A stretch of 34,816 nt of DNA from Candidatus Eisenbacteria bacterium. Lineage in GTDB: Bacteria; Eisenbacteria; RBG-16-71-46. Where the stretch lies: the NCBI GenBank assembly GCA_013140805.1, contig JABFRW010000041.1, positions 1 through 34,816 on the forward strand, read 5' to 3'. The notes under the pieces were generated by a model. It was not told the DNA's origin and searched no databases. It saw only the letters and a program-made list of their open reading frames with translations. Both the position numbers and the translations under genes were made by a program. Positions 6,863-29,440 of this stretch are shown here, piece after piece (positions within the stretch are counted from its first letter, which is position 1; every line of letters begins with the position of its first letter).

Positions 6863-9517
6863 ATGACGCATCGCTCGACTCGGTTTCGGTTGTGGTCGGC
6901 CGCGCTCGCCGTGCTCGGCGTCGCGGCGATCTGGCTCGGCCCGCGCCTGCTTCCAGCCTCGCGTCCGAGCGCCATGCACGCCGAGCGCGCCGACAAAGGC
7001 GGGAAGGACGAGGGCGGGCAATACCCCGGCGAGTGGTTCGCGCTGCAGCGCGCGTGGCCGTACGCCGAGATCCCGCAGGAGAAGTGGCACGCCGCGGTCG
7101 CTCGTGCGCGGCAGGATCGCGCCGGCCTGCCGAACAAGGCCGGTGGCGATCGCATCGCCGCCAGCTTGAACTGGACCAGCAGCGGGCCCTACAACATCGG
7201 CGGGCGCGTCACTGCGCTCGCGGTCGCACCGGGCGGAGCGAATGTCTATCTCGGCGCAGCCAACGGCGGCGTCTTCAAGTCGGTCAACGCAGGTGTGAAC
7301 TGGACGCCGATCTTCGACGAGTTCGGCATCTACTCGATCGGGGCACTCGAGCTGGATCCCTCCGACGCCAACGTGCTGTACGTGGGGACCGGCGAAGCGA
7401 ACTCGGCGGTCGATTCCTACGACGGCGCCGGTGTGTTCAAGAGCACGAACGCCGGCACCAGCTGGCAGCCGCTCGGCCTCGCGGAGACGCGCCGTATCGG
7501 CGCGATCGAGGTCGACCCGTCGAATCCCAATCGGGTCTACGTGGCGGCGATGGGAACCCAGTTCTCGACCAACTCGGACCGCGGGCTCTATCGCAGCGAG
7601 GACGGCGGGGCGAGCTGGTCCAAGACCCTGTTCCTCAACGACAGCACCGGGGTGATCGACATCGCGATCAATCCCGCGCATCCTGAAACGGTCTACTGCG
7701 CAACCTGGGAGCGGGTACGCCACTTCACCTATCGCCGCGCCTTCGGCCCGAGTTGCGGGATCTGGCGAAGCACCAATTTCGGCACCACCTGGACCCGGCT
7801 CCAGAACGGACTGCCGGCGCCGTCCGACGACGTGGGCCGCATCGGGCTTGCGATCGCGGCATCGAGTCCCTCGACGCTCTACGCGCAGATCATCCAGGGT
7901 GCGGCGCTCGGCTACAACGGTCTCGGCTTCTATCGCACCACCGACGCGGGTGAGAGCTGGACGCGCCGCGACACCGGTGCGGCGTTTCTCAATGCGTTCG
8001 GCGGCTTCGGCTGGTACTTCGGCGAGACCGTGGTGACGCCGACCAATCCCAGCATCGTCTATGCAACGGGCGTGAACTTTCTGCGTTCCACCGACGGCGG
8101 CGTGACGTGGGTGAACCGCACCGGTTCCGCGCACGTCGATCAGCACGCGCTGTGGATCGATCCCGCGAATCCCGCGCAACTCTACCTGGGCAACGACGGC
8201 GGATTCTTCTCGAGCATCAACTCCGGCGCCAACTGGACCAAGTCGCTCGACCTGCCGATCACGCAGTTCTACGCCGGCACCATCGATCCGTTCTTTCCCG
8301 AACGCCTGTTCGGTGGCACCCAGGACAACAATTCGATCCGTACTCCGACCGGCGCCACCAACGACTGGCTGCCGATGCTCGGGGGAGACGGCTTCTACGT
8401 GCTGGTCGATCCGACCAACAACGCGATCGTGTTCGCGGAGTCTCAGTACGCGTCGGGAGGCGCGGGTTTGCTGCGGTCCACGAACTTCGGCTTCTCTGGC
8501 TCGTTCATCGGACCTTCCGGCCTCTTCATCTCCGATCGCTTCAACTGGAGCACGCCCGCCGTGATGAGCCCGCACGATCACAACGTGCTGCTGCTTGGAA
8601 GCCAGCGCGTCTACAAGAGCACCGACAACGGCATCAGCTATTCGGTGGTGAGCTCCGACCTGACGCGCAACAACACCACCTCGTTGCTGTCCTTCAGCAC
8701 CCTGACGACGCTCGACATCTCGCCGGTCACCCCCCACCTCTACTACGCGGGTACGGACGACGGCCGCGTCTGGCGCTCTTCGAACGGCGGTACCGGCTGG
8801 ACCGAGATCACCGCCGGGCTGCCGATCCGATGGGTCACCCGCGTCACCGCGGATCCGGCGGATTCGAACGTGGTGTACGTGACGCATTCGGGCTTCGGCC
8901 AGGACGAGCACCTGGCGCACGTCCATCGCAGCACCAATCGCGGCGCGAGCTGGAGCGACATCGCGGCCGACCTGCCGGACGTGCCCGCGAACGACCTGCT
9001 GGTCGACCCCGCGAATCCCCAGCGCCTGTTCCTCGCCACCGACGTCGGGGTCTATACCACGGCGAATCGAGGCACGACCTGGTATCCGCTCGGTCAGGGA
9101 ATGCCGGTGCAGACCGTGTTCGACCTGGCGCTCGAGCCCTTCACTCGCAAGCTGGTGGCGTTCACTCACGGACGCTCGAGCTGGTCGCTGGCGCTCGCCG
9201 AGCTGCCGGTCGAGGTCGCGTCACGTGGCGAGCGCGGGCGCTTCGCGCTCGGCTCCGCGACTCCCAATCCGTTCCGCGGCCTCACCCGCATCGAACTGGA
9301 ACTGCCGAGCACGACCGTCGCCCAGGTGCGAGCGTTCGACGGCGCGGGGCGCGCGATCCGGGAACTGCATCGCGGCTCGCTCGCGGCCGGCCGTCATGCG
9401 ATCGAGTGGAACGGTCGCGACGATGCGGGCCGCCCGGTCTCTGCCGGGGTTTACTTCGTGCGCGCGACCCGCGCCGGTGGTGAGACGCGAACCACTCGGG
9501 TGGTGAAGCTTCGTTGA
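6863..9517 (+). CDS. secreted sortilin/BNR-repeat protein with FlgD-Ig-like C-terminal domain
   Basis: 884-residue exported protein. Residues 10-30 form a hydrophobic signal or anchor segment. From about residue 100 it is a beta-propeller-type array with many Asp-box (BNR) signatures: SVNAGVNW, STNAGTSW, SEDGGASW, STNFGTTW, TTDAGESW, STDGGVTW, SINSGANW, SSNGGTGW, STNRGASW and TANRGTTW. These alternate with DPxxxxxxYxG elements, as in VPS10/sortilin and xyloglucanase-like glycosyl hydrolases. The last 90 residues (from FALGSATPNPF to GVYFVRATRAGGE and a basic end) are a FlgD-Ig/type-A-sorting-like module, with SATPNPF in place of the usual LxxNPFNP. No catalytic pair can be identified by eye, so it may be an adhesin, a propeller scaffold or a glycosidase. 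Confidence 0.85.
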   Translation: MTHRSTRFRLWSAALAVLGVAAIWLGPRLLPASRPSAMHAERADKGGKDEGGQYPGEWFALQRAWPYAEIPQEKWHAAVARARQDRAGLPNKAGGDRIAASLNWTSSGPYNIGGRVTALAVAPGGANVYLGAANGGVFKSVNAGVNWTPIFDEFGIYSIGALELDPSDANVLYVGTGEANSAVDSYDGAGVFKSTNAGTSWQPLGLAETRRIGAIEVDPSNPNRVYVAAMGTQFSTNSDRGLYRSEDGGASWSKTLFLNDSTGVIDIAINPAHPETVYCATWERVRHFTYRRAFGPSCGIWRSTNFGTTWTRLQNGLPAPSDDVGRIGLAIAASSPSTLYAQIIQGAALGYNGLGFYRTTDAGESWTRRDTGAAFLNAFGGFGWYFGETVVTPTNPSIVYATGVNFLRSTDGGVTWVNRTGSAHVDQHALWIDPANPAQLYLGNDGGFFSSINSGANWTKSLDLPITQFYAGTIDPFFPERLFGGTQDNNSIRTPTGATNDWLPMLGGDGFYVLVDPTNNAIVFAESQYASGGAGLLRSTNFGFSGSFIGPSGLFISDRFNWSTPAVMSPHDHNVLLLGSQRVYKSTDNGISYSVVSSDLTRNNTTSLLSFSTLTTLDISPVTPHLYYAGTDDGRVWRSSNGGTGWTEITAGLPIRWVTRVTADPADSNVVYVTHSGFGQDEHLAHVHRSTNRGASWSDIAADLPDVPANDLLVDPANPQRLFLATDVGVYTTANRGTTWYPLGQGMPVQTVFDLALEPFTRKLVAFTHGRSSWSLALAELPVEVASRGERGRFALGSATPNPFRGLTRIELELPSTTVAQVRAFDGAGRAIRELHRGSLAAGRHAIEWNGRDDAGRPVSAGVYFVRATRAGGETRTTRVVKLR

Positions 9518-10148: not shown

Positions 10149-11006
10149 CTAGAACAGCGTCTTGACCTGTTGCACCTCGTCCTCGATGTCCACCAGCAAC
10201 TCCGCCAGCTCCAGCTCGTCGAGCCCGCAGTGGTCGACCGCCGGAACGAGCGTCAGATCCAGGTCCGGCTCGGGGTGCAGGTGGAGACCGATCTTGCGTG
10301 CGATCGCATCGGCGGCCTGCACGCGTAGGGTGAGCCGATCGAGCGCGGCGTCGGTCGGATCGTGATGGCGACGCGCGACCACGCAGATCGGCTCCGGAAT
10401 CCGCCATTCGCGCAGGACCCGTTCGCCGAGCTCGGTGTGCAGCGCGTCGAACAGCTCATCGACCGTCGTGGTGGTGATCGGCGCCTCGCCCTCGCGTTCC
10501 AGCTCGTCGACCGCCTTGAGCACCAGCAGGCAGCCGCTGTCGTGAAGGAGCCCGGCGAGAAACGCCTCGGTCCGCTCTTCCCCCGCTCGCACCGCGAGCT
10601 GACGCGCGGCCACTGCGGTGGCGATCGACTGGTCCCACAGGCGATGCAGCAGCTCGGCACGGCGCGGATCCGACGAGACGAACTGATCGCGTTGAACGCT
10701 CACGGTGACGAGCGAGGTGATCTGCCGCAGGCCGAGGCGTGCGACCGACTCGCTCAGGTCCTGCACCGCACGCAGGCCGCCGAACGATGCGGAGTTCGCG
10801 AGCCGCAGCACCGACGAGGCGAGTGCCGGGTCGTTCTGAATCAGTTCCGCCACTCCGCGCGGATCCGCGGAATTCTCGTTCTGCAGCAGCTCGAGCAGCC
10901 GCTGCGCGATCTCGGGTAGCGGTGGCAATCCGAAACGCCCCGACGTGGTGAGCGAGCGGACGCGCTCGACCAGCGTCAGTGTGTCGGCATCTTTGCGAGC
11001 AGTCAT
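10149..11006 (-). CDS. HDOD domain signalling protein (copy 1)
   Basis: 285-residue single-domain HDOD protein. The HDOD core spans about residues 25-215: LPPLPEIAQRLLELL, then VAELIQNDPALASSVLRLANSASFG, the SVARLGLRQI segment, AGLLHDSGCLLVLK, and VARRHHDPTDAA. HDOD proteins lack the full HD phosphohydrolase site and act as output or scaffold modules in chemotaxis, virulence and surface-motility signalling. There is no fused receiver or GGDEF domain. Its start overlaps the stop of the PilB-like gene (ATGA), so it is co-translated with a pilus/secretion ATPase. That suggests it modulates that ATPase or a shared signalling pathway. Confidence 0.88.
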   Translation of the reverse strand: MTARKDADTLTLVERVRSLTTSGRFGLPPLPEIAQRLLELLQNENSADPRGVAELIQNDPALASSVLRLANSASFGGLRAVQDLSESVARLGLRQITSLVTVSVQRDQFVSSDPRRAELLHRLWDQSIATAVAARQLAVRAGEERTEAFLAGLLHDSGCLLVLKAVDELEREGEAPITTTTVDELFDALHTELGERVLREWRIPEPICVVARRHHDPTDAALDRLTLRVQAADAIARKIGLHLHPEPDLDLTLVPAVDHCGLDELELAELLVDIEDEVQQVKTLF

Positions 11007-12922
11007 CGAGGGCCTCCGGAGCGGATGAGTTCGAGCAGCACAGTGGGGCGTCGAGCGTCCGGGTCGCGCGGCGCATTCGCGACGATTTCGGACAGCGAGG
11101 TGTCCCCCTGCAGCGCCCGCATGACTCCGGACTCCTGAAGGGTCGAGAACACCGGAAGGTGGCGCGCCAGCGAACGCAATTCACGCGACGCGGCGCGACG
11201 CAGCACCGCATCGCGCAGGTCGTCGCTCGGCACCAGCACCTCGTGGATCGCGACGCGACCCTTGTATCCGGTGCCGTTGCAATTGGCGCATCCGCGGCCG
11301 GCCATCAGGCTGAGACCGGCGAGGTCGGCGCGTTCGATGTCGAGATAGCGCAGATCCTCGCGCAACGGCTCGACCGGCGAGGTGCAGTTCGGACACACGC
11401 GCCGCACCAGCCGCTGGGCCACGATCGCACTGATCGTCGAAGACACGAGGTAGGGCTCGACTCCGAGGTCGATCAGGCGGATGAGCGCCCCGACCGCGTC
11501 TTCGGTGTGAAGCGTCGAGAACACCTGATGACCGGTGAGCGCCGCCTCGACCGCCAGTGCGGCGGTTTCGCCGTCTCGGATCTCGCCGACCACGATGATG
11601 TCGGGATCCTGGCGCACGATCGCGCGCAGCGATTGCGCGAAGGTCGGCCCGGTCTTGCTGTTGATCGAGCACTGCGCCACGCCGGGGATCATGTATTCCA
11701 CCGGGTCCTCGGCGCTGATCACCTTGATGCCCGGATCATTCACGTAGTCCACGAACGAGTAGAGCGTCGTGGTCTTGCCGCTGCCGGTCGGGCCGGTCAC
11801 CAGGATGCAGCCCGCGTTCGCGCGCAACACGACGTCGCGCAACATCGAGAGCGGCCGCGCCTCGAAGCCGAGATCCTCGAGCGACACCAGCCCGCGACGG
11901 CGATCGAGCAGTCGCAGCACCGCGGTCTCGCCGAACATGCTGGCGTAGGTCGAAACACGAATGTCGATCTCGCCGCCGTCGAGCTTGACGCGGAAGCGGC
12001 CGTCCTGATGCAGGCGCCGTTCGGCGATGTCGGCGTCGGCCAGCACCTTGATGCGCGAGATGAGCTGCGGCGCGAACGCGGCGGGCAGTCCGGTGAGCGT
12101 CTGCATGACGCCGTCGACTCGCACCCGCACGCGCACCGTGCGCTCGAGCGGTTCGACGTGCAGATCGCTGGCACGCATCTGGATCGCGCGCATCAGCAGA
12201 TCGTCGAGAATTCCGATCGCGCCACGGCCCGATGGATCGTCGCTGGTGGTCTCGCGGATCTCGCGGTACTGGAGCGTGGTCCCGGCCGCGGGCACGTGGC
12301 CGTCGCGCAGGCGCTCCACCGTTTTGAGCGTCGCGACGATCTTCTCTTCGGCGGCGAGACAGGGGCGCACCGGCATGCGATAGATGCGCTCGAGTTCGGC
12401 CACGCACGCGACATCGAGCGGATCGGACATGGCGACCGACAGCTCCTCGTCGGCGACCCGCAGTGGCAGGACCCGATTGCGAACCAGGTACGGCACCGAG
12501 ACGTCGGCGAGCAGCGCCGGATCCACGAGTCCGGCATCGGGCTCGACGATCGGGAGGTCGTGCTTGAGCGAGACCGCGTTCATGAACTGCGCCTCGGTCA
12601 CGAGGCGCCGGCCGACCAGCACCTCACGCTCGGATCCGTCGGGATTCTGCGATCGCGCCAGCTGGTAAGCGGCGCGGCCCTCGGGGTCGAGCGCTCGATT
12701 GGCGACCAGGATCTCGTCGAGCGAGAGCGTCGCCTGATGCACGCGCAACACGCGTTCGTACTCGGAGCGTGCCAGCTGTCCGGTCGAAACCAGGATCTCG
12801 ACCGGCGACTTCGGCTGCTTCAGATGGGCCGAGACGCGGCGCGCGCGCGCCAGCTGGACTTCGCTGACGATGCCCTCGGCCAGCAGCTTCGACTCGAACG
12901 CATCCAGTTCGGCGTTGGGCAC
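11003..12922 (-). CDS. PilB/GspE-type secretion or pilus assembly ATPase
   Basis: 639-residue type II secretion/type IV pilus extension ATPase. The N-terminal 250 residues include T2SSE_N/MshEN-like segments (LVGRRLVTEAQFMNAV, then PYLVRNRVLPLRVADEELSVAMSDPLDV), but the RLG motif of c-di-GMP-binding MshEN domains is not conserved. The catalytic half carries SDLHVEP, Walker A GPTGSGKTTT, VEYMIPGVAQ, Walker B PDIIVVGEIRD with the catalytic Glu, the TGHQVFSTLHTEDA His box, and the tetracysteine zinc site CPNC and CANCNGTGYKG. The chosen start is GTG because GGGAGGGGAG sits just upstream; an upstream ATG would add 20 residues. No pilC, pilT, pilin or gsp gene is in the window, so it is an orphan here. 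PilB and GspE cannot be separated by sequence alone. Confidence 0.9.
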   Translation of the reverse strand: MPNAELDAFESKLLAEGIVSEVQLARARRVSAHLKQPKSPVEILVSTGQLARSEYERVLRVHQATLSLDEILVANRALDPEGRAAYQLARSQNPDGSEREVLVGRRLVTEAQFMNAVSLKHDLPIVEPDAGLVDPALLADVSVPYLVRNRVLPLRVADEELSVAMSDPLDVACVAELERIYRMPVRPCLAAEEKIVATLKTVERLRDGHVPAAGTTLQYREIRETTSDDPSGRGAIGILDDLLMRAIQMRASDLHVEPLERTVRVRVRVDGVMQTLTGLPAAFAPQLISRIKVLADADIAERRLHQDGRFRVKLDGGEIDIRVSTYASMFGETAVLRLLDRRRGLVSLEDLGFEARPLSMLRDVVLRANAGCILVTGPTGSGKTTTLYSFVDYVNDPGIKVISAEDPVEYMIPGVAQCSINSKTGPTFAQSLRAIVRQDPDIIVVGEIRDGETAALAVEAALTGHQVFSTLHTEDAVGALIRLIDLGVEPYLVSSTISAIVAQRLVRRVCPNCTSPVEPLREDLRYLDIERADLAGLSLMAGRGCANCNGTGYKGRVAIHEVLVPSDDLRDAVLRRAASRELRSLARHLPVFSTLQESGVMRALQGDTSLSEIVANAPRDPDARRPTVLLELIRSGGPR

Positions 12923-13023
12923 GACTCCCCTCCCTAGGTGGCGGCCGCAGGGGCTCCGCTCGCCGGCTTCCGTGCTCGGCATGAAACAACTCGAAACCGC
13001 GCAGAGGGCGGCTTCGGGGCAAA

Positions 13024-13050
13024 GTGTCGGCCGGAAGTGCTCTCAATTGA
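13024..13050 (-). promoter_or_regulatory. sigma-28-like promoter, leftward (PilB-HDOD operon)
   Basis: Read on the minus strand, TCAA (13050-13047), exactly 15 nt, then GCCGACAC (13031-13024). This resembles the FliA consensus TAAA-N15-GCCGATAA and the TCAAG-type variant known in some bacteria. Expected start near 13017, giving a leader of about 95 nt before the PilB-like GTG. It mirrors the rightward site at 13061-13087. FliA itself is encoded at 26908-27666. Confidence 0.6.
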
Positions 13051-13060
13051 ACGTGCCCCC

Positions 13061-13087
13061 TCAAACTCCGGGCGCGGCGGCCGACAC
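13061..13087 (+). promoter_or_regulatory. sigma-28-like promoter, rightward (HDOD-sthA-motAB operon)
   Basis: TCAA (13061-13064), 15 nt, then GCCGACAC (13080-13087). The spacing and core are identical to the leftward site. Predicted start near 13094 leaves a leader of about 37 nt, with GAGG before the ATG. Control of stator genes by sigma-28 is the rule in many flagellated bacteria, which supports the call. Confidence 0.65.
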
Positions 13088-13130
13088 TTGGACCTGTCAG
13101 CCGGTCCACCCCGGGTCCCTCGAGGAATTC

Positions 13131-13991
13131 ATGTCGTCCGCCACCCCGCTTCCTGTCCCCATGGATGAGGACTCGCTCGCGTCGGCGTTGCGCGCGCGCC
13201 TGGAGTCCGGCCCCATCGAACTGCCGCTGCTGCCGGAGACGGCCACGGCAGTGCTCGCCGCGTGTCGTCGCGACGAGAGCGGTACCCGCGAAGTCGCGCA
13301 GATCATGCAGCGCGACCCCGCGTTGACCGCGAACGTGCTGCGGATCGCGAACAGCGCGCTCTACTCGCGCGGCGCCGCGATCGTTTCGCTGCCCCACGCG
13401 GTCGGCCGGCTCGGGATCTCGACGGTCGGCGAAATCGCGGCGGCCGCGGTCATGCGCACCACGCTGTTCACCAACGCTCCGGAGGAAGTCTCGATCGAGG
13501 AGCTGTGGCGCCACTCCGCATGCTGCGCGAACTGGGCACGCGAGATCGCGCGCTATCGCCGCCACAGTGTCGAAGGCGCATTCCTGGCCGGACTGCTGCA
13601 CGATGTCGGAAAGCCGGTGCTCCACCATCTGATCGCGCAGGACAACGCGCACGCGCGGCATGCGATTCCGATCGAGGTCACGCGCAGGGTGGTCGAAGAC
13701 ATGCACGGCGAGATCGGCGGCCTGCTGGCCGAGCGCTGGAATCTGGCCGAGTGGATCGCGATCGCGATCGCGCACCATCACCACCCCGAGAACGCGCCTT
13801 CACATCCGTCCGAGGTGCACACGGTGGCACTCGCGAATCACTTCGCGCACGTGGTTTCGGATTCCAGTTTCACGAACATCTCCCATATCGCTCATCCGTC
13901 GGTCGATGTGCTCGACCTCTATGTCGAGGACCTCGAGGCGCTCGCCGAGCGTCGTGACGACGTGCACTCTGCCGTGGAGGCAATGCCGTGA
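13131..13991 (+). CDS. HDOD domain signalling protein (copy 2)
   Basis: 286-residue HDOD protein, a diverged paralogue of copy 1. Order of landmarks: IELPLLPETATAVLAA, QIMQRDPALTANVLRIANSALYS, HAVGRLGISTVGEIA, LWRHSACCANWAREIAR, FLAGLLHDVGKPVLHHL, HGEIGGLLAERWNL, and IAHHHHPENA. It keeps more HD-like residues (HDVGK and the HHHH cluster) than copy 1, so residual metal binding is possible. It is the first gene of the stator operon and overlaps sthA by 4 nt (GTGA). The start ATG is preceded by GAGG. A role in gating motility or late flagellar signalling is inferred from position only. Confidence 0.87.
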   Translation: MSSATPLPVPMDEDSLASALRARLESGPIELPLLPETATAVLAACRRDESGTREVAQIMQRDPALTANVLRIANSALYSRGAAIVSLPHAVGRLGISTVGEIAAAAVMRTTLFTNAPEEVSIEELWRHSACCANWAREIARYRRHSVEGAFLAGLLHDVGKPVLHHLIAQDNAHARHAIPIEVTRRVVEDMHGEIGGLLAERWNLAEWIAIAIAHHHHPENAPSHPSEVHTVALANHFAHVVSDSSFTNISHIAHPSVDVLDLYVEDLEALAERRDDVHSAVEAMP

Positions 13992-15400
13992 TCGACACCT
14001 CAGGACGTTTCGACGTGGTGGTGATCGGCGGCGGCCCCGCAGGTCAGAAGGCGGCGATCCAGACCTCGAAGGCGGGCTTTCGAGCGCTGGTCGTCGAACG
14101 CGGCAGCGCGATCGGCGGCGAGTGCGTTCACCGCGGCACGATTCCGAGCAAGACACTGCGGGAGACCGCCGCTGCCCTCGCGGGCCTGCGGATGCGATCG
14201 ACGGTCGACTTCCGCCGGCCGTTGCCGGCAAACCTGCGCGTCGAACTCATGCTCCAGCGTCAGCGCGAAGTCTGCAACGCGCACGAGCGCTTCATCGGCA
14301 ATCAACTCGAGCGCAACGGCGTCGACTGGCTGCACGGGCTCGCCCGCTTCACCGATCCGCACACGCTCGAAGTGCGACTGCCGGGCGGTTCGCGCCGCAC
14401 GATTCAGGCGAACGCGTTCGTGATCGCGACCGGCTCGCGACCGCGGACGCCCGATGACATTCCGGTCGATCACGATCACGTGCTCGACAGCGATTCCGTG
14501 CTCTCGATGGCGTACCTGCCGACTTCGATGGTGGTGCTGGGCGGCGGGGTGATCGCGAGCGAATTCGCCTCGATCTTCACCGCACTCGACGTGGCCGTCA
14601 CGATCATCGACAAGGCGCCGCGGCCGCTGGCGTTCCTCGAACCCGAGCTCTCGCGTGCATTCGTCGACGACTTCGAGCAGCGCGGTGGCACCTACCTGGG
14701 TGGTCGCTCGATCGCGCGCTTCGAGGTCGATCCGCTGCAGGGCGTCACCGTGACGCTCGATGACGGCCGCGTGGTCAAGGCCCAGAAGGCGTTGTGTGCC
14801 GTGGGGCGCGTGGCCGCGGTGCGCGAACTGCACCTCTCGGCCGCCGGCATCGCGCTGTCGGCGCGCGGACACATCCCCGTCAACGAGTTCTTCCAGACTT
14901 CGGCGCCGCACATCTACGCGGTCGGCGACGTGATCGGACCCCCGGCCCTCGCCGCCACCGCGATGGAGCAGGGCCGCCGCGCCGCACGTCACGCGCTCGG
15001 CCTTCCGCATCCGGCCACCGAGCCGGTGGTTCCAGTGGGCATCTACACCATTCCCGAACTCGCCACCGTCGGCATGACCGAAGCCGAAGCGCTGGCCAAG
15101 TTCGGCGACGTGGTGGTCGGCCGCGCCAAGTTCTCCGAAGTGGCGCGCGGCTGGATCTCGGGCGACACCTCGGGATTCCTCAAGCTGGTGGCCGCTCCCG
15201 ACGGGCGCATCGTGGGTGCGCACATGGCGGGCGAGAACGTGACCGACTACATCCATGTCGCGCAGATGGCGATCCTCGGCGGGCTCGGCGTGGACGCCCT
15301 GATCGACAACATCTTCAACTTCCCGACCATGTCGGAGTCCTACCGCGTCGCCGCGTTGAGCCTGTCCGGACAGCTCGAGCAAAAGCGACTCGCGGCCTAG
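13988..15400 (+). CDS. sthA: soluble pyridine nucleotide transhydrogenase
   Basis: 470-residue two-dinucleotide-binding flavoprotein, the usual SthA length. The FAD motif is VVVIGGGPAGQKAA (residues 10-23), the NAD(P) motif is VVLGGGVIASEFASI, and the second FAD motif is IYAVGDVIG. Instead of the redox-active CxxxxC of dihydrolipoamide dehydrogenase it has GGECVHRGTIPSKTLR: the second Cys is Thr, exactly as in SthA (GTIPSK). The C-terminal dimerisation domain ends with the NFPTMSESYRVAAL signature. SthA exchanges reducing equivalents between NADPH and NAD+ in the cytoplasm without using the membrane potential. The GTG start overlaps the HDOD stop by 4 nt, and motA follows after 21 nt, so it is embedded in a motility operon. 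Confidence 0.92.
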   Translation: MIDTSGRFDVVVIGGGPAGQKAAIQTSKAGFRALVVERGSAIGGECVHRGTIPSKTLRETAAALAGLRMRSTVDFRRPLPANLRVELMLQRQREVCNAHERFIGNQLERNGVDWLHGLARFTDPHTLEVRLPGGSRRTIQANAFVIATGSRPRTPDDIPVDHDHVLDSDSVLSMAYLPTSMVVLGGGVIASEFASIFTALDVAVTIIDKAPRPLAFLEPELSRAFVDDFEQRGGTYLGGRSIARFEVDPLQGVTVTLDDGRVVKAQKALCAVGRVAAVRELHLSAAGIALSARGHIPVNEFFQTSAPHIYAVGDVIGPPALAATAMEQGRRAARHALGLPHPATEPVVPVGIYTIPELATVGMTEAEALAKFGDVVVGRAKFSEVARGWISGDTSGFLKLVAAPDGRIVGAHMAGENVTDYIHVAQMAILGGLGVDALIDNIFNFPTMSESYRVAALSLSGQLEQKRLAA

Positions 15401-15421
15401 CTCGCGGAGCTCCATCTCGTC

Positions 15422-16282
15422 ATGTTCACCATCATCGGCCTCGTGATCGTCATCGGATCGGTGCTCGGCGGCTTCACGATCGCGGGCGGCAGCATTCCGG
15501 TGCTGTTCCAGGTCTCCGAGATCATCGTGATCTGCGGCACCGCACTCGGCACCGTGTTCATCTCGACGCCGCTCGAAGTGTTGATGCGGATGGTCAACCG
15601 CGTCATCAACCTGTTCTCGCCCTCGCCGTTCAACAAGGGGCTGTACCTCGACGCACTCAAGCTGCTGTTCGAGCTGTTCCAGACCGCGCGACGCGACGGG
15701 CTGGTGGCGATCGAGTCGCACATCGAGAACCCCGACAAGAGTCCGGTTTTCAAGAAGTATCCGGCGATTCTCAAACAGCATCATGCGATGGAGTTCCTCA
15801 GCGACTCGTTGCGACTGGTCCTGATGGGCAGCGTGCCGCCTTACGACCTCGAATCGTTGATGGACGGCGAGATCGAGGTCCATCACGAAGCCGAAACGCG
15901 TCCGGTCTCGGCCCTGCAGAAGGTCGGCGACGCGCTGCCTGGCATCGGCATCGTGGCTGCCGTGCTCGGCATCGTCGTCACGATGGGATCGATCGCGGGA
16001 CCGGTCGAGGAGATCGGTCACCACGTCGCAGCGGCACTCACCGGAACTTTCCTCGGTGTGCTGCTGGCGTACGGATTCCTCGGACCGCTGTCGTCCGGAA
16101 TGGAGGCTGTGAACCAGGCCGAGACGCGCTTCTACAACGTGCTCAAGGCCGGCGTGGTCGCTTTCGCCAAGGGTTTCTCGCCGATCGTGGCGGTCGAATT
16201 CGCGCGCCGCGCGATCTTCGCCGATCAGCGCCCGTCCTTCACCGAGATGGAGCAGTCGGTCAAGGGCAAGGCGAAGAGCTGA
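15422..16282 (+). CDS. motA: flagellar motor stator protein MotA
   Basis: 286-residue MotA-type stator subunit. Two N-terminal membrane helices (IIGLVIVIGSVLGGFTIAG, then SEIIVICGTALGTVFI) are followed by a cytoplasmic loop of about 110 residues with the charged torque-contact region (FQTARRDGLVAIESHIENP). Two further helices carry the conserved prolines: VGDALPGIGIVAAVLGIVVTM and the AALTGTFLGVLLAYG segment. It forms a pentamer around a MotB dimer in the inner membrane and converts ion flow into torque. GGAG lies about 10 nt upstream of the ATG. motB follows after 15 nt. Confidence 0.95.
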   Translation: MFTIIGLVIVIGSVLGGFTIAGGSIPVLFQVSEIIVICGTALGTVFISTPLEVLMRMVNRVINLFSPSPFNKGLYLDALKLLFELFQTARRDGLVAIESHIENPDKSPVFKKYPAILKQHHAMEFLSDSLRLVLMGSVPPYDLESLMDGEIEVHHEAETRPVSALQKVGDALPGIGIVAAVLGIVVTMGSIAGPVEEIGHHVAAALTGTFLGVLLAYGFLGPLSSGMEAVNQAETRFYNVLKAGVVAFAKGFSPIVAVEFARRAIFADQRPSFTEMEQSVKGKAKS

Positions 16283-16297
16283 CCGGGGGCGTGAGCC

Positions 16298-17314
16298 ATG
16301 AACAAGGATCGCGAAATCCCGGTTCGCATCATCATCAAGAAGCGGGGTCATGCGGGCGGACACCATGGTGGTGCCTGGAAGGTGGCGTTCGCGGACTTCA
16401 TGACCGCGATGTTCGCGCTGTTCCTGGTGCTGTGGCTCGTGAATCAGAGTTCGGACGTGAAGTCGGCGATCGCCGGCTACTTCCAGGACCCGCTCGGCCG
16501 GGCCGACGAGTTCGGCAGCTCGATCCTTCCCGGTGAGGGCGCGCAGGCGGCGCAGGTGCGCCCTCTGAGTCCCGCGGACGTCATCGACCTGCGTCGCAAT
16601 CGCCTCACGCGCCTGTCCGAGGAGCTGAAGCACGAACTCGAAGGCGTGCCGGAACTGACCGAGGTGATGAAGAACGTCGAGATCACGCTCACCAACGACG
16701 GCCTTCAGATCGAACTGCTCGAGGACTCGATCGGCGTGTTCTTCGAGACCGGCGTCCCGACGCCGAGCGCGAGGGGTCAGAAGGCGATCGCGGTGCTGGG
16801 CGAGCAGCTCGGCAAGCTGCCGAATCCGCTGCGCATCGAAGGGCACACCGACGCACGGCCGTATTCCAGATCCGGGCCCTACGGCAATTGGGAGTTGAGC
16901 GCCGACCGCGCGAATGCCGCGCGCCGCATCCTGACGTCGAACGGCGTACCGGCCGCTCGCATCGCCGAAGTGCGGGGGCTGGCGGACCGTCAGCCGCGCG
17001 ATCCGGAGCATCCGTTCGCGGCACGCAATCGACGCATCTCGATTCTCGTGATGCTCGGCGAACCGGTGGTGGGCGAAGGAGAACTCACCGATCTCGCGGC
17101 CGGTGACTCCGCCGTCGATGCCCCGGCAACCGATGTGGCAGGCAATCGCGTGGCGGGCGCTTCGCAGGCCGTGACCATTCGGCCTATTCCCGCCGGAGCC
17201 CTGCGGGCCGCGGCCGAACGTGCCGCGGCGAATCGCGAGGCAGCGCGTGCGGCAGCCGAGCGCGCACGGCTCGAAGCTCCGAGCGCACCCGACTCCGGAG
17301 GTCATCTGCCATGA
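16298..17314 (+). CDS. motB: flagellar motor stator protein MotB
   Basis: 338-residue MotB. The short basic, His/Gly-rich cytoplasmic N-terminus is followed by a single membrane helix (AFADFMTAMFALFLVLWLV) containing the essential ion-binding Asp at residue 33. Then come a plug/linker region and a C-terminal OmpA-like peptidoglycan-binding domain with EGHTDARPYS, WELSADRANAARRIL and NRRISILVM. After the OmpA domain there is an unusual Ala/Arg/Glu-rich tail of about 80 residues. Neither the tail nor the pore sequence allows a firm choice between proton and sodium coupling. It overlaps the next gene by 4 nt (ATGA). Confidence 0.95.
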   Translation: MNKDREIPVRIIIKKRGHAGGHHGGAWKVAFADFMTAMFALFLVLWLVNQSSDVKSAIAGYFQDPLGRADEFGSSILPGEGAQAAQVRPLSPADVIDLRRNRLTRLSEELKHELEGVPELTEVMKNVEITLTNDGLQIELLEDSIGVFFETGVPTPSARGQKAIAVLGEQLGKLPNPLRIEGHTDARPYSRSGPYGNWELSADRANAARRILTSNGVPAARIAEVRGLADRQPRDPEHPFAARNRRISILVMLGEPVVGEGELTDLAAGDSAVDAPATDVAGNRVAGASQAVTIRPIPAGALRAAAERAAANREAARAAAERARLEAPSAPDSGGHLP

Positions 17315-18474
17315 GCGAGCGGTGTCGCGTGCTGCTGATTCCCGACGTCGACGAGGACGGCTCGCTGCTGCGCGGGGCACTCGAACGCGAAGAGAACCTC
17401 GAGCTTTCGATCGCAACCGCGTGGACCGATCCGCACGGCGGTGAAGTGCGCTCGCGCGCCGACGTGGTGATCGTGGCGCGCTCGCTGCCGCCCGAGACCG
17501 TGACAGCCTGGCATGCGGCGCGTACCTCGGGATCCTTTACCCCGCAACTGCTGGTCGGCGCCAATCTCGGCGACGCCACTCAGGGCACCGCGTTGCTGCG
17601 TGCCGGTGCCGACGACCTGGTCGCCCTGCCGCTCGACCCCATCGACGTGCTCGCGCGATTGCGCGCTGCGGTGGCGCGCCACCAGCTCGCGCGTGCGCTC
17701 GAGCGCTCGCATCGCGCGACCGAAGCGCTGCAGGAGCGCGAGCGCGATCGACTCGATCGCGTGGTCGATCTGCTGGTGGCGTGGATCGAGCACGTGCGCC
17801 CCGGAGCCACCAATCGCGGTCGTCGTGCGGCCGAACTGTCGGCGCGGCTCGCCGAGCGTTTCGGCATTCCGTTCGGGCTGCGGCGTGACATGCACCTGGC
17901 TGCACGCCTCGCCGAGCTGGGACCGGCGGCGATCGATGCCGCAGATCGCAGGGACGAGGACCCCGGCCACATGTCTCTGGTCGCGCAAAATGTGCTCTCG
18001 CACCTGTCTGAGTTCGCCGACGCGGCGCAATTGCTGTCGGAGACGCAGGAGAACTGGGACGGCACCGGCGGCCCGCAGCACCTGTTGCAGGGGCAGATCC
18101 CGCTCCGGTCGCGCATCGTGCGAGCGACTCACGATCTGCTCGCGATGCTCGAAACCACGAACGATCCCACCGGCACCGACGCACTCGAGCGACTCGCCTC
18201 GCACGCCGGGACCTTCTACGACCCGATGGTCGTCGTGCATCTGCGAGCGCTGATGGGAATGCCGGACGCCGGGACGTTCGTCGCGGACCGGGTGACGTTG
18301 CCGGTCGCTCAGCTCAAGGAAGGCATGGTGCTCGCCGAGGACCTGTGTTCGGACGGCGGCGTGAAGCTGCTGGCCTCGGGTACGCGCTTCACCGGCGACA
18401 TCCTCGAGACCATCCGCCGCCGCCATCGCTCGGAGCCGCTGTCGGGCGCGATGGTGCGAAGGGACTCGCTGTAG
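17311..18474 (+). CDS. receiver-like plus degenerate HD-GYP-like protein
   Basis: 387-residue protein. Residues 1-125 have a response-regulator-like alternation (VLLIPDVDEDG, VVIVARSLPP, LLRAGADDLVALPLDPIDVLARLRAAV) without an obvious phospho-Asp site. A linker helix (AALERSHRATEALQERERDRLDRV region) leads into an HD-GYP-like fold around residues 150-300. Its catalytic residues are lost: the expected LLHDIGK is ARLAELG, the HHE motif is TQE, and GYP is GGP within NWDGTGGP. The later SRIVRATHDLLAM helix retains the shape of the family. A C-terminal tail of about 70 residues (LKEGMVLAEDLCSDGGVKLLASG) resembles segments found in other HD-GYP and HDOD regulators. It probably acts as a non-enzymatic binding or scaffold protein tied to the stator. 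Last gene of the operon. Confidence 0.75.
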   Translation: MSERCRVLLIPDVDEDGSLLRGALEREENLELSIATAWTDPHGGEVRSRADVVIVARSLPPETVTAWHAARTSGSFTPQLLVGANLGDATQGTALLRAGADDLVALPLDPIDVLARLRAAVARHQLARALERSHRATEALQERERDRLDRVVDLLVAWIEHVRPGATNRGRRAAELSARLAERFGIPFGLRRDMHLAARLAELGPAAIDAADRRDEDPGHMSLVAQNVLSHLSEFADAAQLLSETQENWDGTGGPQHLLQGQIPLRSRIVRATHDLLAMLETTNDPTGTDALERLASHAGTFYDPMVVVHLRALMGMPDAGTFVADRVTLPVAQLKEGMVLAEDLCSDGGVKLLASGTRFTGDILETIRRRHRSEPLSGAMVRRDSL

Positions 18475-18802: not shown

Positions 18803-20104
18803 ATGCCTTCCTACTCGCTTTCGCACCTCGCCGATCGGGTGCTGCTGCGCGATCTCGCCTCGCTCGTCGCCACCGATCGCGTCACGACTGCCGCACTCCT
18901 CGCTCATCTCGCCGAAGTCGAGGTGCGCCAGCTCTACCGGCCCGCGGCGTACTCCTCGATGCTCGCCTACTGTGTGGGTGAGCTGCGGCTGTCCGAGTCC
19001 GCGGCGCTGAGACGCATCCGCGCGGCTCGCATCGCCCGCAAGTTCCCGGTGCTGTTCCCGGCCATCGCCGATGGACGGATCCATCTCACCACCGTGCTGC
19101 TGCTCGCGACCCACCTGACTCCTGAGTCGGTGGAAGAACTCGTCGCGGTCACCACCCATAAGACCAGGGAAGAAGTGGAGCAGCTGCTGGCGGAGCGCTT
19201 CCCGCAGCCCGATCTCCCGACGAGCTTGCAGGCCATGGGGTTGCCGGCTCCGCCCATGGCGAGAGTCGCGAACGAACACACTGCCGAGGTGGCGCTGGAG
19301 CTACTTCAAAATGAAACACTTCTGGCGGCGCCAGTGGCTGCAGCCCCGGTTGGACGAGCGAGGGTCGCTCCGCTCTCCGCCGACCGCTATGCGCTGCAGG
19401 TCACACTCGCGAAGGAAACGCATGACCAGCTGCGCTACGCCCAGGCGCTGCTGAACCATGCGGTTCCCTCGGGCGACCTGGCACAGGTGCTCGACCGGGC
19501 GCTCAAGGCGCTGGTGCGTCAGCTCGAACAGCGCAAGTTCGGAGCCGCCGCGCGCACCTGTCCTCGACGCGGCAAGCCGCAGGGTCGCTACGTGCCCGCA
19601 CCGGTGCGGAAGACGGTATGGCTGCGCGATGGCGGCCACTGCACGTTCGTAGGTGAGAACGGGCGGCGCTGCGAGGAGCGAGCGCGCCTGGAATTCGATC
19701 ACATCGAGCCGGTCGCACGAGGAGGGACTACCACCGCGGCGAACCTGCGGCTGCGCTGCCGGGCGCACAATCAGTACGAGGCCGAGCAGCTGTACGGAGT
19801 GGCATTCATGCGCGACAAGCGGGAGAAGTCGCAGCGCGGCGCTGTGAGAGCAAAGCCCGCAGCGAGTGCGACTGCAGGGCCGCGTGCGACCGCGGAGCCG
19901 AACACAGCCGCGCCCACTCCCGACAACGACGTGATCCCGTGGCTGCGGCGACTGGGGTTTCGCGCGGAAGAGGCGCGTCGCGGGGCGGCGTGCTGCGACG
20001 CCATCCCCGAGGCGTCGCTCGAGGAGCGAGTTCGGCGGGCGCTGACTCATCTCGCGCCGAGCTGCCGGCGTGACGGCCCTCAGGCGACGAGAAGTCCGGC
20101 GTGA
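18803..20104 (+). CDS. HNH endonuclease-containing protein
   Basis: 433-residue protein. The N-terminal two-thirds (1-260) is helical: LADRVLLRDLASLVATDR, ELRLSESAALRRIRAARIARKFP, then a paired-helix segment ETHDQLRYAQALLNHAVPSGD. The HNH nuclease core follows: RKTVWLRDGGHCTFVG, LEFDHIEPVARGGTTTAANLRLRCRAHNQYEAE, with the DH, N and H residues intact. The tail IPWLRRLGFRAEEARRGA resembles RuvA C-terminal helices. This architecture belongs to a multicopy HNH family of unknown role found in high-GC environmental bacteria. Start ATG chosen by homology-like onset; only a weak ribosome binding site is seen. It converges on flgK with a 14-nt gap, in the place where flgL would be expected. Confidence 0.8.
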   Translation: MPSYSLSHLADRVLLRDLASLVATDRVTTAALLAHLAEVEVRQLYRPAAYSSMLAYCVGELRLSESAALRRIRAARIARKFPVLFPAIADGRIHLTTVLLLATHLTPESVEELVAVTTHKTREEVEQLLAERFPQPDLPTSLQAMGLPAPPMARVANEHTAEVALELLQNETLLAAPVAAAPVGRARVAPLSADRYALQVTLAKETHDQLRYAQALLNHAVPSGDLAQVLDRALKALVRQLEQRKFGAAARTCPRRGKPQGRYVPAPVRKTVWLRDGGHCTFVGENGRRCEERARLEFDHIEPVARGGTTTAANLRLRCRAHNQYEAEQLYGVAFMRDKREKSQRGAVRAKPAASATAGPRATAEPNTAAPTPDNDVIPWLRRLGFRAEEARRGAACCDAIPEASLEERVRRALTHLAPSCRRDGPQATRSPA

Positions 20105-26368: not shown

Positions 26369-26908
26369 TCAAGCAATCCATGTGCCTTGAGTGCCTCGCG
26401 CGTCTCGGGTCGCATTGGCTACGACTTGCGCGCGCGTGAGCCGTGGCTCGGGTCGGCGAGCTCCGGTGTGTGCCGGAACTTTGTTCCGGTTTTGCGGAGC
26501 ACTCTTCCGCTTGCGAGGTCGCTCGAGCGTCTGCGTCCACAGCACCATGCGCACGGCGTCCTGAGCCAGCCGCGTGCGGCGCGCGATCGAGGCGACCGAG
26601 TGTCCGTCGCGTACCAGGCGCAGCACACGGTCGCGCGAGACCGTCGAACGAGCCGGTCCGAGCGCGTGAGTGCGACGAATCGATGCGATCAGAGCGAACA
26701 CCAGCACCGCGAGAAGTGCGGCGGCCACCGACGGTGCGATCGCCAGCAGGTCGGCGCCGTTGAGCGACACCGACGCGCCGTGCCAGCGCAGGAATCGCCA
26801 CATGGCCGAAGCCGAGTAGAGCGCCGCCATGACGTGACCGCTCACCAGCCCCGCCGCTGCGAAGATCACCACCGTGCCCGCGAGTGCCGCCAGTAATTGT
26901 CGGTTCAT
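26369..26908 (-). CDS. membrane-anchored protein with HTH-like tail (DUF6115-like)
   Basis: 179-residue protein. Two membrane segments (residues 7-30, AALAGTVVIFAAAGLVSG; and about 52-75, LLAIAPSVAAALLAVLVFALIAS) are followed by a cytoplasmic helix-turn-helix-like stretch, STVSRDRVLRLVRDGHSVASIARRTRLAQDAVRMVLW by position (around residues 88-124). The tail of about 50 residues is rich in Arg and Lys. Small membrane proteins with a sigma-factor-like HTH are found directly after fliA in other diderm flagellar operons (DUF6115). The ATG shares one base with the fliA stop (TGATG), so it is coupled to sigma-28 translation. Its function is not known. Confidence 0.7.
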   Translation of the reverse strand: MNRQLLAALAGTVVIFAAAGLVSGHVMAALYSASAMWRFLRWHGASVSLNGADLLAIAPSVAAALLAVLVFALIASIRRTHALGPARSTVSRDRVLRLVRDGHSVASIARRTRLAQDAVRMVLWTQTLERPRKRKSAPQNRNKVPAHTGARRPEPRLTRAQVVANATRDARGTQGTWIA

Positions 26909-27666
26909 CACGCCGCCTCCCGGATTTCGATTTCCGAGCGCAGCCGCAGCAACGCTCGGGTGCGGATCTGAGAGACCCGCGACTCGGTGATGTGAAGCAC
27001 CGCGCCGATCTCGCGGTGACTCAACCCTTCGTAGTACGACAGCGAGAGCACCAGGCGATCGCGCTCGCTCAAAGAATCGAAGGCCTCGCGCAGGCACGTC
27101 AGCGTTTCGGCGTGCTCGATGCGAGCACCCGGCAGCTCGTTGCGCTCGTCCGCCAGTGTTTCCGACAACGGCGCGCGATTGCCGGCCTCATTGACCGGCG
27201 AGTCGAACGCGAGCATCGGCGCTCCCGGCAAATTGCGACTCCACTTCCAGAACATGTCCAGGTCCACTTCGAGCGCATCCGCCATCTCCTGCGGGTGAGG
27301 TGCCCGGCCGAGCTTCTGTTCGAGCCTGGCGTGCGTGCGCGACAGCAGCGATTGACGCTCGCGCACCGTGCGGGGCACCCAGTCCTGCGCGCGCAGTTCG
27401 TCGACGATCGAGCCGCGGATGCGCGGCATCGCGTAGGTGCTGAATGCCAGTCCCCGAGCGGGTTCGAAGCCTTCGAGCGCCTGGACCAGCCCAACCGTGC
27501 CGGCGCTCAACAGATCGCCGAGTTCGATGTGGCGCGGACTGCGGCGCACGTATTCGTGCGCGGCGCGGTGAACCAGCCCCAGGTAGTGCGCGAGCAGGGC
27601 GCTGCGCGCCGTGAGGTCGTTGTTCCCGCGATAGCGCTGCCACAGCGCGTCGGTGATCGGATTCAT
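26908..27666 (-). CDS. fliA: flagellar sigma factor sigma-28 (FliA)
   Basis: 252-residue FliA/WhiG-type sigma. Region 2: LVHRAAHEYVRRSPRHIELGDLLSAGTVGLVQALEGFEP by position, then FSTYAMPRIRGSIVDELRAQDWVPR, the -10 recognition helix with the family's RIRG and DELR wording. Region 3: LSRTHARLEQKLGRAPHPQEMADAL. Region 4: LSERDRLVLSLSYYEGLSHREIGAVLHITESRVSQIRTRAL by position, the -35 reader. It directs RNA polymerase to late flagellar and stator promoters. ATGA overlap with flhG. No flgM is present in the window. Two matching promoter sites occur at 13024-13087. Confidence 0.95.
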   Translation of the reverse strand: MNPITDALWQRYRGNNDLTARSALLAHYLGLVHRAAHEYVRRSPRHIELGDLLSAGTVGLVQALEGFEPARGLAFSTYAMPRIRGSIVDELRAQDWVPRTVRERQSLLSRTHARLEQKLGRAPHPQEMADALEVDLDMFWKWSRNLPGAPMLAFDSPVNEAGNRAPLSETLADERNELPGARIEHAETLTCLREAFDSLSERDRLVLSLSYYEGLSHREIGAVLHITESRVSQIRTRALLRLRSEIEIREAA

Positions 27667-28481
27667 CGCGACTCTCCCACCGGGGCCGTGAGACCGAGCC
27701 GGGTGGCGAGCGTTTGGGTCGCGATCGCAAGTCCGGGTGGTGCTTCGGCGAGCAGCGCGCCGGGCCGGCGCACCGCACGTCCGAGTGCCGCATGCTCGTG
27801 CACCGCACCGAGCCAGGTGATCGGGTGGCCGAGGAAGCGGCCGACCGCGAGCTCGAGGCGCGCGAACGAATCGCGCGCTTCGTCGTCGTGAGCGACTCGA
27901 TTGACCAGCACGTCGACCGGGAGCCCGGGAAGCTCTCGCACGATCAGCTTGAGCACCACGTAGGCATCGCACAGCGCGGCCGGTTCCGGGATCAGCACCA
28001 GCACGACGCGGTCGGCTCTCACCGCGGCGGCGCGCAACACGTCGTCGGGGCCCGGACCTGCGTCGACCAGCGAGACATCGAACGCGTCGTGAAGGTGCGA
28101 CATGCGCAGCTCGTGCCGCGCACGATCCACCGCCGAGAGCCCGCGCAATGCTTCGGCTCCGCCGGCTCCCGGCAGCAACCACATGTGATCGCGAACCCGC
28201 GTGAGCATCTCCCCCGGCCGCCGCTCGGCAGTCAGGACCGCTTCGAGCGTCACCGGCGTGCGTGCGCCGAGCAGCAGGTGAAGGTGCCCGAACGCATGCC
28301 CCGCGTCCGACACCAGCGTGCGGAGCCCGCGCGCCGCGAGTGTCGCGCCCATCAGTCCGATGAGCGCCGACTGGCCGACGCCACCCTTCCCGCTCGCGAA
28401 CACCACCGTGCGTCCCTGTCGGGTCGCGGTTTCGCGCGCGCCGCCGGACGGCGTTCCGTATTCGACCGCTGCGCGCGTCAC
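27663..28481 (-). CDS. flhG: FlhG/MinD-like ATPase with altered P-loop
   Basis: 272-residue ParA/MinD family protein in the flhF-flhG-fliA position, where FlhG controls flagellar number with FlhF. The deviant Walker A is SGKGGVGQSAL (residues 30-40): the signature Lys of KGG is kept, but the canonical P-loop Lys (KGGVGKT/S) is Gln at residue 37. The usual DADLGxxN becomes DAGHAFGH (residues 59-66), removing the second Asp and the Asn. The Walker B strand keeps its Asp (VSLVDAGPGPDD). The C-terminal part keeps the VLVLIPEPAALCDAYVVLKLI and DVLVNRV segments of FlhG. Likely reduced or absent ATPase activity. Overlaps flhF and fliA by 4 nt each. Confidence 0.88.
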   Translation of the reverse strand: MTRAAVEYGTPSGGARETATRQGRTVVFASGKGGVGQSALIGLMGATLAARGLRTLVSDAGHAFGHLHLLLGARTPVTLEAVLTAERRPGEMLTRVRDHMWLLPGAGGAEALRGLSAVDRARHELRMSHLHDAFDVSLVDAGPGPDDVLRAAAVRADRVVLVLIPEPAALCDAYVVLKLIVRELPGLPVDVLVNRVAHDDEARDSFARLELAVGRFLGHPITWLGAVHEHAALGRAVRRPGALLAEAPPGLAIATQTLATRLGLTAPVGESR

Positions 28482-29440
28482 GACACCAGCTCCAGTCTCG
28501 CCGCCGAAGCCGAACGATCTCCGCTCGGCGCGGTCGCGCCGCGCGGGGATCGCGCGTCGCGCATCGCCCCTTCGAGCCCCATTGCACGCAGATCCGAAGG
28601 GATCTCCTGCCCATCTCCGTACCAGCGGACCGGCAGCGCCAGCGATTCGGCCAGCTCGAACGCGATCCGATCGTTCGGATGCTCATCGAGCTTGGTCGGC
28701 AACACGTGCGTTGCGCCCAGGTCGCGCACCCGTTCGAGCGCCACCGCCGCCGCCGCGCGCGAAAGGCCCGCGGGAATCACGGCGTGCGTCTCGAGTGGAT
28801 ACAGCACGTGCAACAAGCCGCGCAGCGTGTCGTGATCCTCGCGCCGGCGCGGTCCGCGTCCCGGCGTGTCGACCAGCACCACATCGCAACGGCGCAGGTG
28901 CTTGAGCGCGCGCGGAACGTCCTCCGCGCGATGCGCGAACTCGACCGGCGTGCGCGCCAGCGCGCCCAGCGAGCGCAGCTCCTCGACCGCGCCCGCCCGG
29001 AAGGTGTCGAGCCCGAGCACGCCGACCACCAGTCCGCCCAGCACGTCCGGGTGACTCGCCAGCTTGGCGAGCGTGGTGGTCTTGCCGCCACCGGTCGGGC
29101 CGACCAGCGCGATGACGGGCGGGAACTCGTCGCGACGCGCGGCGAGCGCGAGCGGTGACAGCGTCCGCGCCGCGAGTGACGCGCGTGCGATGTGCGAGAG
29201 CCGGGGCGAGTCGGCCGTGCGTGACTCGCCGGCGCCCGGCGTGACCGCGCGCGGCGGGCCGATGCGCTTCACTCCGGCGCGCGGTGCGAACGCATGGGGA
29301 TCGCCCGGTCGCACGGCAGTCAGCGCGAGTTCGCGCCCTTCGCGCCCGACCGACAGCACGATGGCGTCAGGCCCCAGTGCTGCGCGCGCGCGCGCGAGCA
29401 GGGTGTGGAGTTCGGGTCCGGTAAAGGTCTCAGGCGGCAC
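28478..29440 (-). CDS. flhF: flagellar SRP-like GTPase FlhF
   Basis: 320-residue SRP-family GTPase that sets flagellar position. A shortened N-terminal B domain (residues 1-60, ELHTLLARARAALGPDAIVLS) is followed by the NG domain. G1 is ALVGPTGGGKTTTLAKLA, then GVLGLDTFRAGAVEELRSLG, G3 is VVLVDTPGRG, the HAVIPAGLSR segment follows, and G4 is LPTKLDE. The usual long acidic linker is short. GTG start chosen because GGGAG lies 7 nt upstream; an ATG 21 nt earlier is possible. Overlaps flhA by 11 nt. Confidence 0.92.
   Translation of the reverse strand: MPPETFTGPELHTLLARARAALGPDAIVLSVGREGRELALTAVRPGDPHAFAPRAGVKRIGPPRAVTPGAGESRTADSPRLSHIARASLAARTLSPLALAARRDEFPPVIALVGPTGGGKTTTLAKLASHPDVLGGLVVGVLGLDTFRAGAVEELRSLGALARTPVEFAHRAEDVPRALKHLRRCDVVLVDTPGRGPRRREDHDTLRGLLHVLYPLETHAVIPAGLSRAAAAVALERVRDLGATHVLPTKLDEHPNDRIAFELAESLALPVRWYGDGQEIPSDLRAMGLEGAMRDARSPRGATAPSGDRSASAARLELVS

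Follow-up and report, generated by a model that had tools for sequence, protein, structure and literature searches.

Soluble transhydrogenases (STHs), such as SthA/UdhA of Escherichia coli, are defined by a CxxxxT motif in place of the CxxxxC of disulfide reductases and by a terminal YxxxxE motif, and supply NADH to the respiratory chain (PMC9460512). HDOD proteins alone alter swimming in pseudomonads, Xanthomonas and Campylobacter (PMC11813219, PMC11004494), and one of them, SadB, binds cyclic di-GMP (c-di-GMP; PMC6543031). SadB, GsmR, Cj0248 and PSPTO_4229 are known examples that change swimming, and none has a known pairing with a transhydrogenase. Genes of both kinds stand directly before flagellar stator genes in a 34,816-nucleotide (nt) stretch of a Candidatus Eisenbacteria bacterium (contig JABFRW010000041.1), hereafter the window, which belongs to a 3.8-Mb metagenome-assembled genome (MAG). 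We show here that this HDOD-sthA combination is a widespread, previously unremarked gene pair, and explore how far it may be coupled to flagellar power. In the window five genes are collinear on the plus strand at positions 13131-18474:

13131..13991, plus strand: HDOD gene (286 aa; PF08668, E=9e-47, 159.6 bits against a gathering score of 22.9)
13988..15400, plus strand: sthA-like gene, encoding an HDOD-linked flavoprotein of the STH subfamily (470 aa; C46xxxxT51, F445xxxxE450; assigned by NF003585, subfamily-invariant columns and tree)
15422..16282, plus strand: motA, flagellar stator (TIGR03818, MotA1, 364 bits, cut-off 304)
16298..17314, plus strand: motB, flagellar stator (PF13677 MotB_plug, PF00691 OmpA)
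17311..18474, plus strand: degenerate HD-GYP-like gene with a receiver-like N-terminus, the third gene of the stator operon (PF13487 HD_5, 56 bits)

The stop of the HDOD gene (13991) and the GTG start of sthA (13988) overlap by 4 nt (GTGA), as do the stop of motB (17314) and the ATG of the HD gene (17311; ATGA); 21 nt separate the sthA stop (15400) from the motA ATG (15422), and 15 nt the motA stop (16282) from the motB ATG (16298). An earlier note, made from this sequence, had described just such a chain of overlaps and short gaps, and both the coordinates and the family profiles agree with it. The MotA and MotB products have the character of stator proteins, the former by the TIGR03818 cut-off and the latter by its plug and OmpA domains, MotB scoring 201 against, and thus below, the cut-off of 277 for the MotB equivalog NF006548. 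The designation of the fifth gene as HD-GYP-like holds for its HD_5 domain match only: the protein scores 113 bits with NF053512, far under the cut-off, and in its translation, inspected by eye, AELGPA replaces HDIGK, HHE is gone and GGP replaces GYP, such that the signatures of an HD-GYP c-di-GMP phosphodiesterase are lost. Because HDOD-sthA sits between a flagellar-type promoter motif and motA, the stators and the STH-like enzyme share one putative transcription unit.

The wider distribution of the pair emerged when GTDB genomes were searched with the STH-like protein of the window, which gave 80 homologues at 48-57% identity in Nitrospirota, Myxococcota, Planctomycetota, Verrucomicrobiota (as labelled), Pseudomonadota, Binatota, Nitrospinota and Rhodothermota. 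Wherever the flank is long enough, the gene immediately preceding the homologue encodes an HDOD protein, and in most cases the two genes overlap by 4 nt. When all loci are pooled, HDOD is adjacent in 110/110 subfamily members for which 900 nt or more of upstream sequence is available, spread over about nine phyla, and in 0/77 other STH-like loci, a comparison set that includes copies under the NCBIfam STH cut-off (for example, lipoamide-dehydrogenase-like ones) and in which very divergent HDODs near classical copies could escape a model built from paired HDODs. The score ranges of the two groups are disjoint (635-836 for the subfamily, 278-557 for other STH-like loci), and in the tree a single branch with support of 100 parts the subfamily from classical-type STH. 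The HDOD-sthA pair thus constitutes a distinct, deeply conserved and translationally coupled unit, patchily distributed across phyla, and its internal junction, being conserved in 110/110, is far from chance. The linked copy is present exactly once in each of 58 carrier genomes, and since most of these genomes also have a classical-type copy (in the window's genome at C33:29481-30851, 600 bits), a specialised role of the linked enzyme is likely. In the open-access literature searched, no paper holds both 'HDOD' and 'transhydrogenase', and nothing relevant was found on motAB with transhydrogenase or on transhydrogenase with swimming.

The linked enzyme shares fold family, length and CxxxxT with SthA/UdhA, its best match in the Protein Data Bank (PDB) being the soluble transhydrogenase 9n4y, and passes the NCBIfam STH equivalog cut-off (NF003585, 502.5 bits against 465). 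Unlike SthA/UdhA, it has an obligate HDOD partner gene, invariant residues of its own (H99, P213, K267) and phenylalanine in place of the tyrosine of YxxxxE, a change found in 88/88 subfamily members, whereas the tyrosine is present in 51/58 classical-type alignment rows; it is 36-44% identical to the classical-type copies of the genomes sampled. As CxxxxT (C46 and T51 in the window) and the cut-off are kept but FxxxxE stands for YxxxxE, the enzyme is placed in a subfamily sister to classical STH, with predicted transhydrogenase activity, rather than in classical STH itself. It is quite improbable, although the uniform FxxxxE and the oxidase side activity of E. coli SthA (PMC9460512) would accord with it, that we are dealing with a related NAD(P)H-dependent flavoprotein, an oxidase or diaphorase serving, for example, oxygen or reactive oxygen species sensing, given CxxxxT in 88/88 members, the equivalog score and the PDB match.

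The paired HDOD protein of the window, which at sequence level has the PDB kin 3i7a, 3hc1 and 1vqr (Cj0248), keeps both H157 and D158 of the HD motif. Across the paired family, however, an intact metal site is not the rule: only 14/79 paired HDODs retain the metal ligand D158, and for this reason phosphohydrolase activity is not expected of the family.

The candidate promoter of the operon was found by pattern search, in two copies, with function inferred for the first:

13061..13086, plus strand: sigma-28-like motif TCAA-N16-CCGACA upstream of the HDOD-sthA-motAB-HD operon
13025..13050, minus strand: divergent copy of the sigma-28-like motif, oriented towards the PilB-like/HDOD2 operon

The pattern TMAA-N16-CCGAYA has 2 matches in the window against 0.01 expected from shuffling, both within the 148 nt that separate the divergent PilB-like operon from the HDOD operon. 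Compared with the FliA consensus TAAAGTTT-N11-GCCGATAA (PMC7286023), TCAA-N16-CCGACA has the right spacing and a partly matching core. The two copies are not independent, because they overlap in part with an inverted repeat (13017-13033 / 13078-13094), the arms of which contain their -10 parts; they might be a regulator site instead of promoters. The same motif, here as TCAA-N16/17-CCGATA, precedes motA by 62-112 nt in 6/8 relatives, the form in relatives being CCGATACT. No sigma-28-like motif was found between sthA and motA of the window, nor upstream of any other HDOD-sthA pair (0/111), and it is because of the latter count that promoter capture appears specific to the window's lineage. The divergent operon (10149-12982, minus strand), which has its own copy of the motif upstream, encodes a PilB/GspE-like ATPase with an MshEN domain and, with a 4-nt overlap, a second HDOD protein (HDOD2). 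MshEN domains bind c-di-GMP in known examples.

How the stator operon came by its present form can be judged from the 47 genomes of the window's phylum that were compared. A closely related motA, 63-72% identical to that of the window, is present in seven same-family relatives (G019, G020, G022, G023, G024, G026, G032), and in 7/7 the order motA-motB-HD is kept, as in the window, opposite flgK, with an HD orthologue of 34-44% identity after motB; a window-type sthA occurs in 0/7. Since all seven keep motA-motB-HD without such an sthA, the three-gene operon goes back to the ancestor of the family and HDOD-sthA is most likely an addition made in the window's lineage, so the five genes as a family-conserved unit can be rejected. 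Only the window places HDOD-sthA between promoter motif and motA; in four relatives an EAL-HDOD gene immediately precedes motA on its strand (L152 3903-5126; L153, L155, L157; in one of the four the contig carries only the end of the gene), and G026 has a divergent HDOD beside motA that resembles HDOD2 with 43% identity (L156). HDOD-type genes therefore recur in the slot before motA. Together with the effects of HDOD proteins alone on swimming, this recurrence could be taken to mean that the HDOD protein regulates motility, and that sthA, although long its translational partner, has only a housekeeping role and is carried passively. We consider this improbable, as the strict pairing in 110/110 and the enzyme's own subfamily-invariant residues suggest that the two proteins work together.

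An arrangement seen once, on a MAG contig, also invites the suspicion that the junction of HDOD-sthA with motA is a chimera of metagenome assembly. This we think very improbable: HDOD2, which flanks the insertion on its other side, also lies beside motA in G026, so that both flanks are family-syntenic, and the spacing, with its 21-nt gap and tight overlaps, is gene-like. The GC content at third codon positions (GC3) of the window HDOD (HDOD1) and sthA (0.84 and 0.86) equals that of neighbouring genes, which likewise speaks against a chimera and gives no compositional signal of recent foreign origin.

Among the relatives compared, placement of the pair directly before motAB is specific to the window's lineage, and the sthA-motA junction is seen only in the window. 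The linkage to the stator, a capture specific to this lineage, is nevertheless not unique, for in three Binatia loci (L080, L097, L148) the order is motA-motB-HDOD-sthA, with flgL and flgK nearby and csrA in two of the three. In all, flagellar genes lie within about 10 kb of the pair in six lineages: besides the window and Binatia, two Myxococcota and two Nitrospira groups, the clusters in these last four being about 2-10 kb away. They comprise, in Myxococcota, matches to window flgF, fliA, flhF, flhA, flhB and fliR (G281) or fliS, fliD, a flagellin-like gene, csrA, flgL and flgK (G230), and, in Nitrospira, csrA-flgL-flgK (group A) or flgB, flgC, fliF, fliG and fliI with a FleSR-like pair (group B). 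Since the same pair repeatedly adjoins flagellar loci in other phyla, its gene neighbourhoods suggest that flagellar work is a usual, not exclusive, job of HDOD-sthA. Among 395 genomes of the phylum to which the Binatia locus G072 belongs, a search for further pairs linked to motAB found only one more subfamily member. In the Binatia loci a second MotB/MotA-like pair (L080 4497-6300, L148 11451-13491) converges on motA-motB-HDOD-sthA, such that HDOD-sthA lies between two stator-like pairs.

Not counted as flagellar were weak MotA/MotB matches near some Nitrospirota pairs (MotA about 28 bits), which are probably Tol-Pal/ExbB-type genes; the FliI-like gene beside the pair in L083, a flagellar or type III secretion system (T3SS) type ATPase in a genome without a MotA_N match; and FliI matches near classical sthA in L165, taken as rotary ATPase subunits. 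The L083 gene (7372-8949), in a Myxococcales genome, carries a T3SS_ATPase_C domain and stands directly upstream of HDOD-sthA.

Whether such proximity reflects function must be weighed against a serious possibility, in our view still short of probable, that HDOD-sthA is a general redox-signalling module without special tie to motility, a horizontal mover which landed by chance in the stator operon and is read through from its promoter only incidentally. With this would agree the absence of the pair from the seven close relatives, its variable neighbours across phyla, the lack of a sigma-28-like motif common to other pairs and the position of most pairs in other lineages, which have no flagellar gene detected within the examined 10-20 kb. 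Against it stand the six separate lineages, including the second stator linkage in Binatia, and the classical-type sthA controls, of which 0/27 (20 Nitrospirota copies and 7 others) lie near flagellar genes. Six of about 32 lineages, or 5/31 without the window, give a rough binomial p of 4e-5 to 0.02, where the base rate (2-5% of random loci) and the lineage count are our own estimates; for non-Nitrospirota lineages without the window (3/24) p is 0.01-0.12, and this enrichment is suggestive only. Carriers are also enriched for motA, with a MotA_N match in 29/32 carrier genomes, and with motA in 6/6 carriers against 67/229 non-carriers in Myxococcota (p=8e-4; weak MotA_N matches here may not all be flagellar) and in 67/72 against 114/223 in Nitrospirota (p=7e-12; named carriers being largely Nitrospira and kin), in tests which ignore phylogeny.

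Our preferred reading is that the pair serves as redox partner of the flagellar motor by way of stator-operon capture, which we advance tentatively, as an account that may well be correct though we would stop a little short of calling it probable. Weighing against it, besides the observations just cited for a general module, are the neglect of phylogeny in the motA tests, the absence of a MotA_N match in 3/32 carrier genomes and the change of YxxxxE to FxxxxE, which leaves the transhydrogenase activity of the enzyme a prediction. The dedicated energy-motility module proposed in the earlier note is accordingly supported in part: the pair is conserved, lies near stator or flagellar genes in other phyla, occurs in motA-enriched carriers and in the window stands behind a sigma-28-like motif, but the five-gene set is not conserved. 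The note had also held that sthA apart from motAB in close relatives would make this a chance local arrangement. Such separation is found to the letter, classical sthA lying elsewhere and the window-type copy being absent, but chance does not follow from the survey of relatives, because the relevant unit is HDOD-sthA, which recurs at stator and flagellar loci elsewhere.

Under the proposed redox partnership the STH-like enzyme would transfer hydride from NADPH to NAD+, and the resulting NADH would feed the respiratory chain and hence the proton motive force driving MotAB. HDOD, as a family without intact metal site, would act as signalling or scaffold partner of the enzyme, and by analogy with SadB could be c-di-GMP-responsive. 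If HDOD-sthA-motAB-HD is co-transcribed, a sigma-28-type promoter would make the enzyme available while motors are powered. A more specific version, in which the degenerate HD protein, on sensing a nucleotide messenger that is perhaps c-di-GMP, would itself gate a dedicated transhydrogenase by direct action, such that NADPH/NADH exchange is switched with motor use, we regard as rather unlikely.

The operon faces a flagellar cluster in which FlgK, FliA, an FlhF-like protein and FlhA are confirmed by profile; the names flgN, flgI, flgH, flgA, flgG, flgF, flhB and fliR derive from gene order and reading of the sequence. This cluster includes

26908..28686, minus strand: open reading frame (ORF) holding a FliA/WhiG-family sigma factor (sigma-28; TIGR02479, 210 bits, over the cut-off)

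Between the stator operon and flgK lies an HNH endonuclease gene (18803-20104, plus strand). Elsewhere in the window, positions 6863-9517 (plus strand) encode a large protein of secreted type, repetitive and with a sorting-like tail at its C-terminus; an 817-codon antisense ORF that runs through the gene is probably spurious.

Taken at this strength, the findings point to a dedicated connection of the cell's redox balance with flagellar power, by means of a gene pair present in about nine phyla, including the nitrite oxidiser Nitrospira. The HDOD proteins, whose partners are mostly unknown, thereby gain a candidate enzymatic partner.

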